Source: Gemmataceae bacterium
GTDB lineage: Bacteria; Planctomycetota; Planctomycetia; Gemmatales; Gemmataceae
NCBI GenBank assembly: GCA_019694755.1
Contig: JAIBBI010000014.1
Location: 1-64,000, forward strand
Reading direction: 5' to 3'
DNA length: 64,000 bases
Made by a program: the position numbers and the translations under genes. Under the pieces are notes generated by a model. The model was not told where the DNA came from. It worked only from the letters and a program-made list of their open reading frames with translations, and ran no database searches. Of this stretch, positions 1-9,900 are shown piece by piece. How positions within the stretch are numbered: position 1 is the first letter of the stretch; the number at the start of each line of letters is the position of its first letter.

Positions 1-1254
1 GTCGTCGCCCGTGCCGAAGTCGAGGAAGCCGTTCAGGAGCAGCCCGGCGTTGTTCATGACGAACGTGTCATTGCCCGCGCCGAACGAGGCGTTCAGGTTG
101 TACGTCTGGGCCGCGAGCAGCGTCAGCGTGTCGACGCCGCCGCCCGTGCGGAAGTACAGGTTGCCGGACAGCGTGCTGTTCGCACCCATGGTCAGCGAGT
201 TGTTGCCGTTGCCCAGGAGGAAGTTGGCGCTGCCCGCAATGATGGACTGGACCGGAGTTGTCGCCAGGTTGTCGCTTCCATTGCCGGCCGTCACCGCCAG
301 GCTGCCGGCCAGGATGAGGTCGGACGCCAGATTGTAGGTGTTGTTGCCGTCTCCGGCGTTGATATTCAGGCTGCCGCTGATCGTCGAACCGCCGCCATTG
401 CCGCCCGAGCCGACCGTGAACGAGTCGTTGCCATTGCCCGCAAGCAACGTCACCGTACCGCCGACTTTCGCAGTGCCGGGCATCGCCACGCCGGCTCCGA
501 TCTCGAAAATATTGTTGCCCGCGCCGAGGTTGATCATCAGGTTTCCGGCAATCGTACTGTCGGACCCCATGCGGAGTACGTCGCTGCCTGCAGAGCTGGT
601 GAGCGTGACGTTTCCACCGACATTGCATCCGAGAGTGAAATCGTTGGCGAAGCCTTCATTGGCGCTGATGATTACGTTGCCGGCGATGTCGCAGGGTGCG
701 AGCGCATTGATGAAGTTACCGTTCGTAACGTTCAAGTTTCCGCCGATCTTGCACCGGCCGCTACCCATGAAGAAGTCGTCTGTCCCCGCGTCGAGATTGG
801 CGGTGATGCCGCTCGAAATCGTCAGCAGACCAGTGCCGTCAAAGGTCACGATGTCGTTGCCGGCCCCGGTCTGGAAGCTGATCGAACCATTAATGTTACC
901 GCCGTTGCCCTGCACATGGACGAAATCTGCGCCGTTGCCGGTGAGAATGGACACGGATCCGGTGTAGGTGAATGCGCCGATGTCGAGCGTGAAATCATCC
1001 GCGCTGTTCCCCATGCGGATGTTCAGGTTGCCCGGCACGTTGTAGGTACCGAGATTGGCTTGCGGGTTAGCACCGACCGTGTTGAGCACCTGGAACTGGT
1101 TGTCCGCCGTCGCCTTCACGACGAGCGTGTTGGCCACGTTGTCACCGGTCACGGTGAGGTTGCCGCCGACCAGGGAAACCGCAACCGCGGGTACTTCCCG
1201 CGATTCCAGAGCGAGGACTTGCAGGGCGGGGCGACGCTTGCCGAAACGGGACAT
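1..1254 (-). CDS. Surface beta-strand-repeat protein, C-terminus beyond window
   Basis: The reading frame is open from an ATG at 1254 to the left edge, 418 codons with no stop, so the C-terminus is missing. A Shine-Dalgarno AGGAG lies about 8 bases upstream. The N-terminus is a short basic stretch followed by LALESREVPAVAV, a variant of the L-E-x-R-x-x-P-A motif that opens many planctomycete surface proteins. The rest is a long series of beta-strand units of about 20-25 residues rich in G-N-G-N-D, G-D-G-N-N and G-A-G-N-D turns, like the RTX/haemolysin-type or autotransporter beta-repeats. It has no enzyme motif. It is a likely exported structural or adhesive protein, possibly calcium binding through the Asp/Asn turns (inference). 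It is related in build to the protein at 34233-35582. The family-level call is confident; the function is unknown. Confidence 0.8.
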   Translation of the reverse strand, partial: MSRFGKRRPALQVLALESREVPAVAVSLVGGNLTVTGDNVANTLVVKATADNQFQVLNTVGANPQANLGTYNVPGNLNIRMGNSADDFTLDIGAFTYTGSVSILTGNGADFVHVQGNGGNINGSISFQTGAGNDIVTFDGTGLLTISSGITANLDAGTDDFFMGSGRCKIGGNLNVTNGNFINALAPCDIAGNVIISANEGFANDFTLGCNVGGNVTLTSSAGSDVLRMGSDSTIAGNLMINLGAGNNIFEIGAGVAMPGTAKVGGTVTLLAGNGNDSFTVGSGGNGGGSTISGSLNINAGDGNNTYNLASDLILAGSLAVTAGNGSDNLATTPVQSIIAGSANFLLGNGNNSLTMGANSTLSGNLYFRTGGGVDTLTLLAAQTYNLNASFGAGNDTFVMNNAGLLLNGFLDFGTGDD

Positions 1255-1582
1255 GGAAAACAGCTCCTGAAATCGGGAAGAATACCACACCCACCAACCG
1301 TAAGGCTGGTTTCCGAGGCACGGTATTATTGGTTTGATCGCAATAACTTAAGTCAGTTTGTGCAGACATTACAGATCGCAATCAATGATCGCGTCGCGGA
1401 CACTGGGTAATTCGGTACGATCACTCCGATCATTGGGATTATGATCGATCTGACGACCGTACCGGTTTTGTCGGTTAAACAAATAGGACCGAATGGCTCG
1501 CACTTCTCGCATTTGGATTACTCCGGACTGGCCGCGCGCAGCCCGGCCCATCCAATAGAGCCGACGGGTCGGAGAACGAACC
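1255..1582. other. Divergent intergenic region
   Basis: This spacer of 328 bases lies between two divergent genes and is visibly richer in A+T than its neighbours around 1320-1490. It must hold the promoters of both genes. I see no convincing sigma-70 pair. It contains a perfect 7-bp inverted repeat listed separately. I see no RNA gene in it. Confidence 0.6.
1427..1447. repeat. Inverted repeat, possible operator
   Basis: CGATCAT, a 7-base gap TGGGATT, then ATGATCG form a perfect 7-bp dyad in the A+T-rich part of the divergent spacer, about 135 bases upstream of the aldolase-like gene. It has no T-run on either side, so it is not a terminator. A dimeric repressor site is the most natural reading, but no regulator gene is nearby. 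Confidence 0.35.
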
Positions 1583-2853: not shown

Positions 2854-5823
2854 TCAGACTGATGTCAGAAAACGCAGACGGAACTGCATGAAGTCATCGG
2901 CATCGACTGTTCCCGATCCGTCGAAGCTGAAGATTGTGCTCGACTGTAGGAATGCCAGTCGGAACGCCATGAAGTCGGCCGCATTCACGGCCCGATTACC
3001 GTCGACATCGCCGAACAGGCGGTGGAAGGTGACGACGGCGTTGTCGCCCGGCGTCCCGTCCCCGTTGCCGTCGAGCGCGACGCCGCCGGTGCTCAACTTA
3101 CTCGCGAGCATGGTCAGCGTGTACGAACCGTCGGCCAGCGAACCGAATTCCGTGCCTGGTCCGCTGAACGTGAGCCGCGCCACCGTCTGAATCGAGGAAC
3201 TCGTCGACGTATCGACCGTCACCGCCACCGGGCCGTTCGGCCCGACGAGCAGAAACGCGTCGGACGGGTTGGTCGGCATGGCCATGGCGTGATCGAACAC
3301 GACCTGCACCTGCGTGACCCGCGACCGCTGCGCGGTGCCGTCACCGATGTTCGTGCCCTGTACCTGCGGCGCCCGCTGGACGATCGTGTAGCCTTCATCG
3401 GCTACGAAGTCACCATTCAAAAGCCCGGTTCCGCCCAGTTGCGCACCTGTGTCAGAGAAGATAGACCCGTCGTCCACGATGTCGAGACGGAGCGTACCGC
3501 TGCCGGCTCCCGAGTGGATGAGCACGTCGTAGACGCTCGGGTCGGCCGTCGTGTGAACGTGCTTGATCATCGCGCCGGCGATGTTCCCGGTGGTCACGAT
3601 CTTGAAGTCGGCCGCGTCGACGCCGGTGACCGGCCCGCTGAAATGCACTTCGAATTCCACTTCGCCGTCCGGCGCGGGGTTCGCATCGTGCAGGTGGATA
3701 TCCGAAACGGTAGGCACGGCGATTCGGATGGCCTTATTGTTGCCAACAATCGAGTTGGAGCCGCTATTGGACACGAGCAGCACGGTACCTGTTTGGCCGT
3801 TGGCCCGGATGCCGACGGTCGCGCTCGCGCCGTTCGCCGTTGAATCGCCCGAATCGATATCCGGGTAGTTCAGAATGATCTCGCCGGGCGTATTTCCTGT
3901 GTTGAGCTCGAGCGATGCCTGGAAGGTCATCGGAGAGGGCGAAGTCGAGTAGTGGTAGACCTGATTCCACTGGATGATCAGCCGCTCCGGCGTGCCGTCG
4001 GAGTTTGCATCGACGAACCGGTAAAGAGCATGCGGCGTCCCCGGCCCCTTAACGAGATCGTCCCAGAGGACGGCGATGGCCGGCGGGTAGACTGTCACGC
4101 TGTTGTAAGTCATGCCCTTCAAATCGCCGTTGTCGTAGGCCGAAGTCCCCTGGCCGAACGAGATCACGCCGTTGGTGGATACGTAGAGCTGATTCGCCCC
4201 GGTGTAGTTGACGCCGTACAGATTGAAGCTGTTGGTGCCGAGGGGTATGGCGGTGTTGGCATCGTCGGTACCCGAGAACGTGATTGCGGTCGAACCGGCC
4301 GCCCCGACGAGTTCCATGTTGGTGACGGGGACGTTGCTGGCGGAGTAACCGAACGCGTCCGGACCCGCAATTCCGGGAATCTGCACGTTGAACGCAATCG
4401 TGTAGCGGTCGCTGGCGTTCGAGAGGCCATCGTCGTTCTGGTCCACCGAGATCCCCGCCGGGTTGGTGACGGTGGGATCGATCACGATCGAATAGGCGCC
4501 GCCGGCAGTCAGAGGATTGGTGAAATTGATGATGAAGGCCGCGCTGGTGCCGCCGGACGTAGCCGGCGTAATGCTGGCGATGTTGCTCAGCAGGTTGGTG
4601 CCGCCCGGGCCGGTAAAGCTGTACACGTCGGCCACGGTGAACGACGCCGAGTCCATGGGCTGGGTGTACGTGATCTGCACGCTGCTGATCGGCGGCGCGA
4701 CCGAACCGGTCGGGCTGCCGCCCTGCACATGCGGCGCGGCGATCGTGAAGATGTTCTGGAACAGGTCGGCCGCCTCGCCGGCGACTCCGTTGTTATTCTG
4801 ATCCATTCGCTGGCCAGATGTGTTGAAAATATCAGGCCCGATTGCAATCTGGTATGTCCCGACCGCAGCCTGCAACGCGAAGTTGGCCCGGAACTTCACG
4901 CTGCTGATCTGCGTGATGCTCGTGATCGGGATCGCGCCGGCCGGGCCGGTCATCGTCACGTCGCTCGGGGTGAACGTCGTGGGATCGACCGCTTGGTTGA
5001 AGTTGAACTCAGCGTAACTTGTCGACGCAAAGCTCGCCCCCGTCGGCGTCGCGGACTGCACTCGGAAGCCGTACGTCGGCAGGGTCGTCAGCGAAATCGC
5101 CACGCGCGTGACGTTGTTGGTCTCGTCCAGTTCCAGGATGTGATTGCTCGGATCGGCGACGACCTCCAGCCAGTAATTGCCGTTCGGCAGGCCGGTAACA
5201 TCAATCGACTGGCCCGCGAGGCCCGAGCCGTACACATCGTTCCACCCGACCGAAATACCCTGCACCTGATTGCCGCAACTCGGATAGCCGGCCGACGCTG
5301 GAGAGCCGGGCAGGCTCGGTGCATAGTGATTGGAATCGAGCAGACAGAAGCTGGTCTTTGGGCCGACGGCGACAATGTCACCGACGCTGTTATCGGAAGG
5401 TCGCAACCGGAGTTGGCCCCATGCAAAATCATCGAAATGCACGTGACCATGAGCCGGGTGATATACGAAGTACCCCGCCGGGCGCGTCGTGAACGAGCCG
5501 TCGTCCCAGTAAATCTTCTGGTTGACCAGCTGTCGTTGCGTACCGTCCGGATCGGTTACATAGTTGGTCGTGCCGTTCAGTTCGAATGCGCCTTTGCCAC
5601 CGTTGGCCATCCCCGTGGAGAATCGGACTTCCCGGCCGCCGCTGGTCGTCGTGTTGACCGTCCAGCCACTGAGGTACGACTGAAGCACCTGGAGGTCAGG
5701 CAGCATCTGGTTGGCCGGGGTGACGCGGTCTTCGAGCGACTCCAATCGCATCGGACGTGGTACACGGACCAGGGGTTGACGACGCGGGGAACCGAAGAGG
5801 CTGGACAGCCAACGGTGAGACAT
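2854..5823 (-). CDS. Secreted lysyl-oxidase-like protein with nidogen-like, Ig-like and dockerin-like domains
   Basis: Numbered from the ATG at 5823 (989 residues); the frame opens 12 codons earlier at 5859, and neither start has a good ribosome site. Order of parts: basic leader; LESLEDRVTPA surface motif (about 28-38); lysyl oxidase domain (about 42-245); repeated Ig-like/Big_5-type domains; a nidogen-like segment around YVSTNGVISFG; more Ig-like repeats; and two dockerin-type EF-hand loops at the C-terminus (DVDGNRAVNAADF, DGSGTVDADDF). In the oxidase domain the copper motif HxxHxHxH is intact (H122, H125, H127, H129). K156 in PKTSFCLLD and Y198 align with the lysine and tyrosine that form the lysyl tyrosylquinone cofactor in animal enzymes. 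Family members oxidise lysine side chains to aldehydes that cross-link proteins. The oxidase family is clear; activity and substrate are inferred. Confidence 0.8.
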   Translation of the reverse strand: MSHRWLSSLFGSPRRQPLVRVPRPMRLESLEDRVTPANQMLPDLQVLQSYLSGWTVNTTTSGGREVRFSTGMANGGKGAFELNGTTNYVTDPDGTQRQLVNQKIYWDDGSFTTRPAGYFVYHPAHGHVHFDDFAWGQLRLRPSDNSVGDIVAVGPKTSFCLLDSNHYAPSLPGSPASAGYPSCGNQVQGISVGWNDVYGSGLAGQSIDVTGLPNGNYWLEVVADPSNHILELDETNNVTRVAISLTTLPTYGFRVQSATPTGASFASTSYAEFNFNQAVDPTTFTPSDVTMTGPAGAIPITSITQISSVKFRANFALQAAVGTYQIAIGPDIFNTSGQRMDQNNNGVAGEAADLFQNIFTIAAPHVQGGSPTGSVAPPISSVQITYTQPMDSASFTVADVYSFTGPGGTNLLSNIASITPATSGGTSAAFIINFTNPLTAGGAYSIVIDPTVTNPAGISVDQNDDGLSNASDRYTIAFNVQIPGIAGPDAFGYSASNVPVTNMELVGAAGSTAITFSGTDDANTAIPLGTNSFNLYGVNYTGANQLYVSTNGVISFGQGTSAYDNGDLKGMTYNSVTVYPPAIAVLWDDLVKGPGTPHALYRFVDANSDGTPERLIIQWNQVYHYSTSPSPMTFQASLELNTGNTPGEIILNYPDIDSGDSTANGASATVGIRANGQTGTVLLVSNSGSNSIVGNNKAIRIAVPTVSDIHLHDANPAPDGEVEFEVHFSGPVTGVDAADFKIVTTGNIAGAMIKHVHTTADPSVYDVLIHSGAGSGTLRLDIVDDGSIFSDTGAQLGGTGLLNGDFVADEGYTIVQRAPQVQGTNIGDGTAQRSRVTQVQVVFDHAMAMPTNPSDAFLLVGPNGPVAVTVDTSTSSSIQTVARLTFSGPGTEFGSLADGSYTLTMLASKLSTGGVALDGNGDGTPGDNAVVTFHRLFGDVDGNRAVNAADFMAFRLAFLQSSTIFSFDGSGTVDADDFMQFRLRFLTSV

Positions 5824-5929
5824 GATTGTGCCCGATCGAGGTAGGATGACGGAAATCATGGGTGAGCCGTCAATATCGCCGGTCCGGCGGGCCGTGTCAA
5901 GGACCGCCCCCCGGCGGACCGCGCAAAAA

Positions 5930-5963
5930 GAAACCGGCTGGGGTTCCTGCCCCGGCCGGTTTC
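5930..5963 (-). terminator. Intrinsic terminator of the TIGR03000 gene
   Basis: GAAACCGGCTGGGG (5930-5943), a 6-base loop, and CCCCGGCCGGTTTC (5950-5963) form a 14-bp stem with one wobble pair. On the minus strand it is followed by TTTTT, about 20 bases after the stop codon at 5984. Confidence 0.8.
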
Positions 5964-5983
5964 GAGTCTTTTGAGTCGACTGA

Positions 5984-6697
5984 TTACTTCTTCACGACCG
6001 CGTTAGGCGAGGTCGGTGAAAATGTCTCGCGGAACTCCTCGCCCGCCCGGACCAGCACCCGGCGGGTCTCGCTGATCTCCTGGCCGTCGCGGGTCCCTTC
6101 CACGCGGACGGTGTAGTAGTAGGTCTGGCCCGGTTCGAGTTCCGGCGTGCGGAAGTGACGAACGGTGTCGGTGCCGGCCATCGGCATGTCGTCGACGTAG
6201 ATCTTCGCCTGCGCCGGGACGTTGAGAATCAACTTGGCCGCTCCGGCCGGCTTGGCAGCCGGGGGAGCGTCGGCCGGCTTGGCGGCCGGCGGGGCGATCA
6301 TCGGGTTGCCGGCCGGGTGATACGGCTGGGCCGGGCCATACCAGATCGGCTGGCCGTAGCAGCCGCCGTAGCAGCCCGCAGTGTGAGCGATGCAGCCGAG
6401 GCACGAGCCGTAGCATCCGCCGTAGCAGGCGGTTCCGCCGTACTGGCCGAAGCAGCTCGAGTAGGCGTGGTAGCCGGCGCAGCCGTATTGGCCGTAAGCC
6501 ACGACGCCGTAGCATCCGTAAACGCCGTACCCGGCATCGCCACCCCAGCGCCAGCCGTGACGGTGACCGCCATAGCCCCACCCGCCGTAGGTATCGCAAC
6601 AGCCCACTTCGACCGGGGCCGACCGCCATTTCTTGTGAAACTCGACGGCATCCGGGCCTGTGGCCGCGAAGGCCGCCATCATCACGACGCTGTACAC
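5984..6697 (-). CDS. TIGR03000 protein with Cys/Gly/Tyr-rich domain
   Basis: I take the GTG at 6697 as start because GGGAGG lies 6 bases before it, and because the second copy of this family in the window also begins MYSVVMM. This gives 237 residues; an in-frame ATG 16 codons upstream has no such site. The N-terminal MYSVVMMAAFAATG is a weak, uncharged hydrophobic leader. Residues about 30-120 are rich in Gly, Tyr and Cys (11 Cys, many as CYGG). An Ala/Pro/Lys linker with AAKPA repeats follows, then the C-terminal TIGR03000 domain (about 160-237, starting ILNVPAQAKIYVDD), a planctomycete-specific beta domain of unknown role. Probably exported and disulphide-linked (inference). It has its own promoter and terminator. 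Confidence 0.8.
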   Translation of the reverse strand: MYSVVMMAAFAATGPDAVEFHKKWRSAPVEVGCCDTYGGWGYGGHRHGWRWGGDAGYGVYGCYGVVAYGQYGCAGYHAYSSCFGQYGGTACYGGCYGSCLGCIAHTAGCYGGCYGQPIWYGPAQPYHPAGNPMIAPPAAKPADAPPAAKPAGAAKLILNVPAQAKIYVDDMPMAGTDTVRHFRTPELEPGQTYYYTVRVEGTRDGQEISETRRVLVRAGEEFRETFSPTSPNAVVKK

Positions 6698-6786
6698 TCT
6701 GCACCTCCCAGGGCCGCGGAGACCCGGATACAACTCGTCCCGCACCGGACCGACGACAGCCCGGCAAACTATCGGGGCTACGCTAA

Positions 6787-6815
6787 ATGGTAAAAGTGCC
6801 GAGGATAAACGTCAA
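6787..6815 (-). promoter_or_regulatory. Sigma-70-like promoter for the TIGR03000 gene
   Basis: On the minus strand TTGACG (6815-6810) and TACCAT (6792-6787) are separated by exactly 17 bases, giving a leader of roughly 80 bases to the GTG start. The same arrangement precedes the second TIGR03000 gene at 58023-58051. Confidence 0.55.
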
Positions 6816-6907
6816 AGGCAATCTGCGGCGACTCTACCGACTGTCGTAGCGGTTGTACCCACCGTTTCGGAGAATCGGCGCAATCGGGCTATAGTCTGCC
6901 CCGGCCG

Positions 6908-9900
6908 CTATCGCGCCAGCGTCACATTGAAATACTTGGCTTGCGGGTGGTGAACCACCATCGCCGTGGTCGACTGTTCCGGCTCGAGCTGGAATTGCTC
7001 CGACAGGGCGATCCCGATCCGCTGCGGCTCCAGAAGCCGGAAAAGCCCCGCCTGATCCTCCAGCCGCGGGCACGCGGGATATCCGAACGAGTACCGGCAG
7101 CCGCGGTAATGCTTCTTGAAGAGCTTTTTCACGTCCGGGCTGTCCTTCCCGGCGATGCCCCACATCCTGCGAATCTCCCGGTGCGTCCATTCGGCCAGCG
7201 CCTCCGCAAACTCCACGCCCAGCCCGTGCAGGAACAGGTAATCCTGGTACTTGCCCGACTCCTTGAGTTCCCAGCACCGCCGCGAAACCTCGGCCCCAGC
7301 GGTGACGGCCATCATGGCCACGAAGTCGCCGGCATCGGGCCGGTGGTAGTCGCTCAGGCAGAGGTGCTCCCCGTGATCCTGACGCGGAAACGTGAACCGC
7401 TCGTCGCCCACCTTAAGATCATCACCGTCGGCCACTGCGGGGTAAAAACCGATGACGGACGCGGGCCGGAGAATGTTCTCGGCCAAGCACATCTCTTTGA
7501 GCCGAGCCAACGCGGGCTCGGCGATATCACGCATCTGCCGGGCGTACTCACGGGGCGGTACGCCGTTCTTGCGAAACTGCCACTGCGTGCCGAACAGCGT
7601 CCGCTCATTGAGAAACTCGAACACTTCGCCGACCGGAATATCGGTGAGCACCCGTGAGCCGACGAACGGCGCGGCCGGGATGTCGTCGTTGACCGGCAGA
7701 GTCCGCGCGTACAGGCTCCGCCGGATGTTCGCGTGGACTTCGCAGCAATCGACATCCTGTACGATGGGGTCACTGACGACCGCGGGCCGATTCCCCAGCC
7801 CCGCAATCACCGCGCTGCCCACCTGGCGGACTCGCTTTGCCGCAGCCAGATCGTCCATGATCCGCAGGCCCGCAAACGCGTCTTCGCCGTAGTAGAGCTG
7901 GCCTTTGTAGATTCGCCGCAAGTCTTCCTCGACATACCGTCGGTTCAGGGCCGCCCCACCCAGGATCACCGGCGGCGCGAGGCCACGCGAGTTAAGCGTG
8001 ATCAGGTCTTCTTTCATGACCACGGTGCTCTTTACGAGCAGGCCGCTCATGCCGATCGCGTCGGCCGACTGTTTCTGGAACTCGGAGATCATCGTTTCGA
8101 TCGGCTGCTTGATGCCGAGGTTGAACACCTTGTAGCCGTTATTGGACAGGATGATGTCGACGAGGTTTTTGCCGATGTCGTGAACATCGCCTTTGACCGT
8201 CGCGAGCACGATCCGGCCCTTCTCCGAGCCTTCGAACTTCTCCATGAACGGTTCGAGTTGGCCGACTGCCTCCTTCATCACTTCTGCCGACTGAAGCACG
8301 AACGGCAACTGCATCTGGCCGCTGCCGAACAGTTCGCCCACCACCTTCATCCCCTCGAGCAGGATGTTGTTGATGATCTCGAGCGGCGGGTATTTCCCCC
8401 GGGCGGTTTCGAGGTCGGCCGAGAGCGTCTCGCGCCGACCCTGAATGATCGCCTGCCGCAGTCGCTCCTCGATGGTGTCGCCGAGCGACGCGCCCGACTT
8501 CGCGGCCGAGGCCTTCTTGTCTCCGTAATGACCGATAAGCTGCTGCAGCGGGTCGCCCGTGCTGCGATCGTCGAACAGCAGTCGACGGCAAAGTTCCTGC
8601 CCCTCGGGATCGATCTGTGCAAGCGGAATGATCTTCGCCGCGTGGAGAATGGCCGAGTCGAGCCCCGCCTCCATCGCGAAGTGCAGGTACATCGAGTTCA
8701 GCACCTGCCGGGTGTACGGCGTCAGCCCGAAGCTGCAATTGGACAGCCCCACGTGCGTCATCGCACCGGGCAACTTGTCCTTGATCATCTTGATGGCGTC
8801 GAAAGTCGCCATCGCGCTTTTGCGGGTCTGCTCCTGCCCGGTGGTCAGCGGGAAGACGAGCGGGTCGAACAGCAAATCGGTCGGCGGGATGCCGAACTCC
8901 TGCGTGCAGATGTCGTAGATCCGCTTGGCAACCTGGAACTTCCACTCGGCCGTGTCCGCCTGGCCCACTTCGTCGATCGTCAGTGCGACCAGTGCTGCTC
9001 CGTACCGTCGAGCCAGGGCGCAGATTTTGTCCAGCTTGTGCCGGCCGTCTTCGAGGTTGATCGAGTTGATGATTGCCTTGCCCGAAATCAGCTTCAGCGT
9101 GCTCTCGAGCACAGACACTTCGGTGGTATCGATCATCAGCGGCTTGGTGATGACGGCGTTGTACCGCTTCACCGTTTCCTGCATGTCGCGGACTTCGTCG
9201 CGGCCGACATACGCAGTGCAGACATCGAGGACGTGGACCCCTTCGCGCTCCTGCTCGCGGGCCATCTCGACGAGGCCGGTCCAATCCTCGGCTTCGAGCA
9301 GTTGCTTGAACTTCTTCGAGCCGTTGGTGTTGGTCCGCTCTCCGACGAGCAAAGGCCGCGGCTCCTGTGCCAACTCCACCGCCCCGAACAGGCTGGACAG
9401 TGAGGGCACGGATTTCGGCGATCGCGTGGCCGGAGTCAACTTGTGGACACGGTCGGCCACCGCTTTGAGGTGCTCGGCCGTCGTCCCGCAGCAGCCGCCG
9501 ACGATGTTCACGCCAAACTCGGTCACGAATCGTGCCTGCCAGTCGGCCAGTTCATCCGGCTGGAGTGGAAAGTACGTCTCCTCGCCTCGCTTCTCTGGCA
9601 AGCCGGCGTTTGGCAGGACGCTGATCTTGCGCGTGCAATATTGACTCAGGTGGGCCACCGAACTCAGCATCAAGTCCGGGCCGACGGCGCAATTGAGCCC
9701 GATGACATCGATCTCGGGGAACGACTCAAGTGTTGTCAACGCGCCGGCGATATCGGTGCCCGGCAACATCCGGCCGTCCTGCTGCACCGTGACCTGCACC
9801 ATCAGCGGCAGCCGGACGCCCCGCTCGCGCATCACGTCCAGTGCGGTAATGATGACCGCCTTGGCCTGGAGGATGTCGAACACCGTCTCGATGAGCAGTG

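Follow-up and report, generated by a model that had tools for sequence, protein, structure and literature searches.

In animals, collagen is cross-linked by enzymes of the lysyl oxidase (LOX) type. To our knowledge, physiological roles of their prokaryotic counterparts have not been established. Bacterial and archaeal LOX are known from a 2015 survey (Grau-Bove et al. 2015, PMC4448552), whose bacterial members are mostly single-domain, do not include listed Planctomycetota and were stated to lack the first histidine of the copper motif. The closest tested prokaryotic case is HTU-LOX from the haloarchaeon Haloterrigena turkmenica, a secreted protein of 308 aa with an N-terminal hydrophobic/propeptide region, termed cryptic in the 2019 paper, which is Cu-dependent and BAPN-sensitive, oxidises lysine peptides, and has a relaxed specificity that takes in taurine, histamine, polymyxin and aminoglycosides (PMC6452851).

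Here we analyse a gene for a LOX surface protein in a stretch of 64,000 nucleotides from a Gemmataceae bacterium (contig JAIBBI010000014.1, positions 1 to 64,000), referred to hereafter as the window. Its product has the PF01186 domain, core histidines, Lys and Tyr of the surveyed bacterial LOX, but is a multidomain planctomycete protein. With HTU-LOX, which is active with Cu2+, it has in common the conserved copper histidines, the two residues of the lysyl tyrosylquinone (LTQ) cofactor and a predicted secreted location, while HTU-LOX is without its stalk or dockerin. Human LOXL2 resembles it in fold, in the HxxHxHxH motif, in the equivalents of Lys653 and Tyr689 and in a Cys pair flanking the Lys segment; however, identity is about 27%, the other animal cysteines are missing from the window protein, and LOXL2 has SRCR modules where the window protein has Ig and dockerin modules. 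Bacterial LOX being already known, the window protein is a well-preserved further example, and what is new here is its placement on a long-spacer branch of the family, the presence of three paralogues, one of them without most of the copper histidines, and a tag found in 113 copies.

The LOX domain and the layout of its gene

The window protein is, by sequence and predicted fold, a genuine lysyl-oxidase domain protein. Residues 131-258 match PF01186 at 52.2 bits (cut-off 20.4, E 7.7e-14), a profile that found no match in 14 control genomes. In a phmmer search against the PDB the sole match was human LOXL2 (5ze3, E 1.2e-7), whose His motif, Lys and Tyr line up with those of the window protein, and a profile of 35 relatives also had LOXL2 as its best match (E 3.4e-22). 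An AlphaFold model of window positions 5044-5715 (mean pLDDT 93.1, pTM 0.86) gave LOXL2 5ze3 first in VIA-align, with a Z of 17.3 and an rmsd of 2.5 A over 172 residues, followed by CARDB and glycosidase beta-sandwich domains at a Z of 8.3. The original prediction of a LOX domain with an intact copper motif in the spacing of animal LOX and both LTQ residues is thus borne out. The motif reads H134-P-A-H137-G-H139-V-H141, in which His137, His139 and His141 align with the copper-talon histidines H626, H628 and H630 of LOXL2 and His134 is also present; Lys168 lies within PKTSFCLLD, and Tyr210 within NDVYG, ahead of SIDVTG. The sole solved LOX structure, 5ze3, is reportedly a precursor state in which the Lys and Tyr are far apart, and the distance between the two in a model is therefore a poor test of the assignment. 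A CARDB match (PF07705, 25.1 bits, above cut-off) overlaps the LOX domain (window 5086-5703, minus strand); this overlap, together with the Z of 8.3, hints at a shared beta-sandwich origin of the two domains.

From the N- to the C-terminus the protein consists of a LESLEDRVTPA motif, the LOX domain, Big_5 Ig-like repeats, a nidogen-like stretch, a stretch with no named domain and, at the end, a dockerin-like tail of 62 aa (Table 1). Of the accessory parts originally proposed, the Ig-like one is recovered above its cut-off, and the others stand in part. The planctomycete surface motif is there to be read, but its profile match is weak; the nidogen-like stretch is sub-threshold, but a LOX-NIDO protein on a Verrucomicrobia contig (L035) passes at 27.1 bits; and the tail is a relative of type I dockerins by profile, although the window copy alone stays below the cut-off. 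The domains fused to LOX in other bacteria are dockerin, PPC, P-proprotein, subtilase with PKD and NIDO, and sugar dehydrogenase, and multidomain surface LOX are therefore common in these groups. One such fusion, to a glucose/sorbosone dehydrogenase domain, lies at 5198-7711 of a Candidatus Uhrbacteria contig (L037).

Table 1. Features of the LOX surface-protein gene, in window coordinates
Feature	Position	Strand	Basis
Promoter-like site TTGACA-17-GATATT	5872..5900	-	Consensus match only
LOX surface-protein gene	2854..5823	-	Frame open up to 5859; Met13 (5823) the likelier start
N-terminal planctomycete motif LESLEDRVTPA (residues 39-49)	5713..5745	-	Read in sequence; PF07595 at 14.5 bits, under its cut-off
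LOX catalytic domain (residues 53-258; PF01186 match 131-258)	5086..5703	-	Profile, LOXL2 alignment, model
Copper motif H134xxH137xH139xH141	5437..5460	-	LOXL2 alignment, conservation
Lys168, equivalent of LOXL2 Lys653 (LTQ)	5356..5358	-	Aligned to 5ze3; conserved 53/53
Cys172, presumed disulfide with Cys195	5344..5346	-	Only two Cys in protein; conserved 50/53
Cys195, presumed disulfide partner of Cys172	5275..5277	-	Conserved 50/53
Tyr210, equivalent of LOXL2 Tyr689 (LTQ)	5230..5232	-	Aligned to 5ze3; conserved 53/53
Big_5 Ig-like domain, best of three stretches (residues 265-355)	4795..5067	-	41.3 bits, above cut-off
Nidogen-like stretch (residues 556-648)	3916..4194	-	NIDO PF06119 at 20.3 bits, short of the cut-off of 25
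C-terminal dockerin-like tag (residues 940-1001)	2857..3042	-	PF00404 20.4 bits, below cut-off 22.9

The open reading frame (2854..5859, minus strand) encodes 1001 aa. Met13 is the likelier start, because the N-termini of the paralogues are of similar length and because the promoter-like site would leave Met1 almost leaderless; this agrees with the gene end given in the original prediction. A terminator-like hairpin (5930-5963, a consensus match scored on the plus strand) separates the gene from the TIGR03000 gene upstream, and its downstream neighbour is convergent. From these features and the promoter-like site, the hairpin and the site being consensus matches, the LOX gene appears to stand alone. 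Its neighbours encode a PF14031/PF01168 enzyme, the TIGR03000 protein and methionine synthase. The TIGR03000 protein, just upstream (5984-6745, minus strand), is rich in Gly, Tyr and Cys and carries this planctomycete domain at 79.3 bits. A further protein, cut off by the edge of the window (1-1290, minus strand), has an N-terminal LESREVPA motif and repetitive sequence; Pfam gave no confident match to this protein.

Conservation, paralogues and two LOX branches

Across the 53 aligned LOX domains Lys168, Tyr210 and Asp208 show no exception; for Tyr, this invariance is biased among loci L022-L062, which were found by a pattern containing it. Loci from HMM searches are free of this bias, and none of the patterns used in the collection scan contained Lys; the scan was built on a closer set of LOX, an alignment of all planctomycete LOX being too diverse. 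Three further loci checked apart by HMM (L018, L095 and L096) also retain Lys and Tyr. Among the 53 domains, the copper histidines were conserved in 48 (His137), 51 (His139) and 49 (His141) cases, and His134 in 38. This first histidine is present in the window protein and in most bacterial LOX examined, contrary to the earlier survey (PMC4448552). Some LOX-like domains (L001 1144-1842, L013, L015 and L090) have lost most of the copper-motif histidines and kept the cofactor Lys and Tyr.

The genome has three LOX copies, C254 (the window copy), C194 and C100, which are 56-64% identical to each other and, with an NG86 dN/dS of about 0.3-0.5 at a dS near saturation, are under purifying constraint. 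Loss of the histidines in close homologues, the observation that was to count against the assignment, is found in one of these paralogues: C100 reads DEDCGDMH in place of HPAHGHVH, so that one of the four copper-motif histidines is left, with Lys and Tyr still present. All four are kept in C194, and most relatives retain the motif as well. Since C100 is without most of this motif, the three copies cannot all be normal LOX.

Trees were built from 48 and then 53 LOX domains, with animal LOX represented by a fragment of one sequence (human LOXL2). In the 53-domain tree a 100/99 split places the window protein on the other side from the LOXL2 branch, within a larger branch that also holds Planctomycetota, Verrucomicrobia, Patescibacteria, Streptomyces, Chloroflexi and other loci, and in which many inner forks lack resolution. 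Also on the LOXL2 branch are some of the Planctomycetota loci and some of those found in the genomes or phyla of L036 (Verrucomicrobia) and L044 (Bacteroidota). The two branches differ in the spacer between Ala85 and the copper loop, which measures 22-30 residues in the LOXL2 branch (22 in LOXL2 itself) and 44-73 in the larger one (52 in the window protein). The window protein thus fails as an animal-type LOX both in its grouping and in its spacer. A reading of the first tree, in which planctomycete LOX alone were sister to animal LOX, was dropped when that branch also took in loci from the L036 and L044 genomes and from the two phyla. Nine bacterial loci with a short spacer (L004-L007, L083, L084, L088, L089 and L094) fall on the LOXL2 side of the split and are candidate members of the lineage nearest to animal LOX. 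Judged by the tree as a whole, the majority of the bacterial LOX in this analysis seem to lie outside the lineage that includes animal LOX. We know of no member of the long-spacer branch with a reported activity.

LOX was found in only one of 95 genomes of the same family (this genome), in 14 of 392 Planctomycetota genomes, and in 5 of 289 and 4 of 296 genomes of the L036 and L044 phyla, respectively. One hit in the L036-phylum search (L091) was rejected, its match being confined to a CARDB-like stretch. Phage records gave no LOX match, and plasmid records weak matches only (Streptomyces, Gemmatirosa). This patchy distribution suggests transfer and/or loss.

The dockerin-like tag and possible functions

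The C-terminal tag occurs in 113 copies in the genome (E <= 1e-8), the window copy and 112 other places, and a search of 15 relatives found none. In each of the 60 copies sampled the tag ends 0-4 residues before a stop codon, and 13 of 19 sampled tag-bearing proteins have an LExRxxPA-like motif at the N-terminus. As in GC-type dockerin domain-anchored proteins (NF041540) and type I dockerins (PF00404), the tag is a C-terminal module with two EF-hand-like loops; all eight members tested match both profiles, and the best copy matches PF00404 at an E of 1.9e-8. However, the window copy is below both cut-offs, and the cohesin profile PF00963 has no match in this genome, the assembly of which is about 97% complete. 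Modelling of the tag from a single sequence gave a poor result (pLDDT 52). The 19 sampled proteins average 1.25% Lys, the tag itself has about 0.3%, and the window protein has 10 Lys in 1001 residues. With these lysine-poor tagged proteins, and with neither Pfam collagen nor cohesin found in this genome, a cross-linking substrate is not obvious.

We consider it probable, from sequence, model and analogy, that the window protein is a secreted, cell-surface copper/LTQ amine oxidase of the lysyl-oxidase family. This reading is favoured because HTU-LOX, the closest tested prokaryotic case, behaves in this way, with a broad amine specificity (PMC6452851). In the proposed mechanism, Cu(II) would be bound by His137, His139 and His141, with His134 nearby; copper and O2 would oxidise Tyr210, and Lys168 would add to the oxidised Tyr210 to give a self-made LTQ. 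By analogy with known LOX chemistry, the cofactor would then oxidatively deaminate primary amines, whether small amines or lysine side chains within its reach, yielding aldehydes, H2O2 and ammonia, and cross-links between surface proteins could possibly form from such aldehydes. The Ig-like repeats would serve as a stalk and the dockerin-like tail as a genome-wide surface tag.

As to what such an enzyme would act upon, small or foreign amines are a realistic possibility, in which case the activity would serve nitrogen scavenging, H2O2 production or the inactivation of amine antibiotics and not cross-linking. The relaxed specificity of HTU-LOX points in this direction (PMC6452851), and the sporadic occurrence in the three phyla fits an accessory function, but the long adhesin-like stalks and the surface tag to which the domain is fused point to a target bound at the surface, and no transport or catabolic partner gene adjoins the locus. 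We are more doubtful that an active LOX cross-links lysines of a surface protein coat, in a form of matrix maturation, on proteins with the same dockerin-like tag. Animal and haloarchaeal LOX do oxidise lysine in proteins, and a tag common to the window protein and about 112 other places implies that all are probably delivered to the same site; against this stand the low lysine content of the sampled proteins and of the tag, the lack of Pfam collagen in the genome, and the absence of LOX from the other 94 genomes of the family, which makes it dispensable for a general coat. An adhesion module of the CARDB-like beta-sandwich type, non-catalytic and with LOX residues kept merely for structure, seems an improbable reading: the PF07705 overlap, the CARDB structures near the top after LOXL2 and the retention of Lys and Tyr in C100, L013, L015 and L090 despite the loss of most copper histidines all speak for it, but the window copy and C194 keep all four histidines, three of these are at least 90% conserved in the aligned set, and a Z near 8 may reflect a common fold only.

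Returning to the copper amine oxidase, one could go further and suppose that the surface-anchored LOX cross-links the organism's own tagged protein coat, with the paralogue that lacks the copper motif acting as a regulator or in a different chemistry, a speculation that we hold to be unlikely. If true, coat cross-linking by a surface LOX would be a prokaryotic parallel to the matrix maturation of animals. For the roles of prokaryotic LOX the genome offers a natural test set, with two intact, apparently surface-tethered LOX copies, one copy without the copper motif, and more than 100 candidate targets that carry the same tag.
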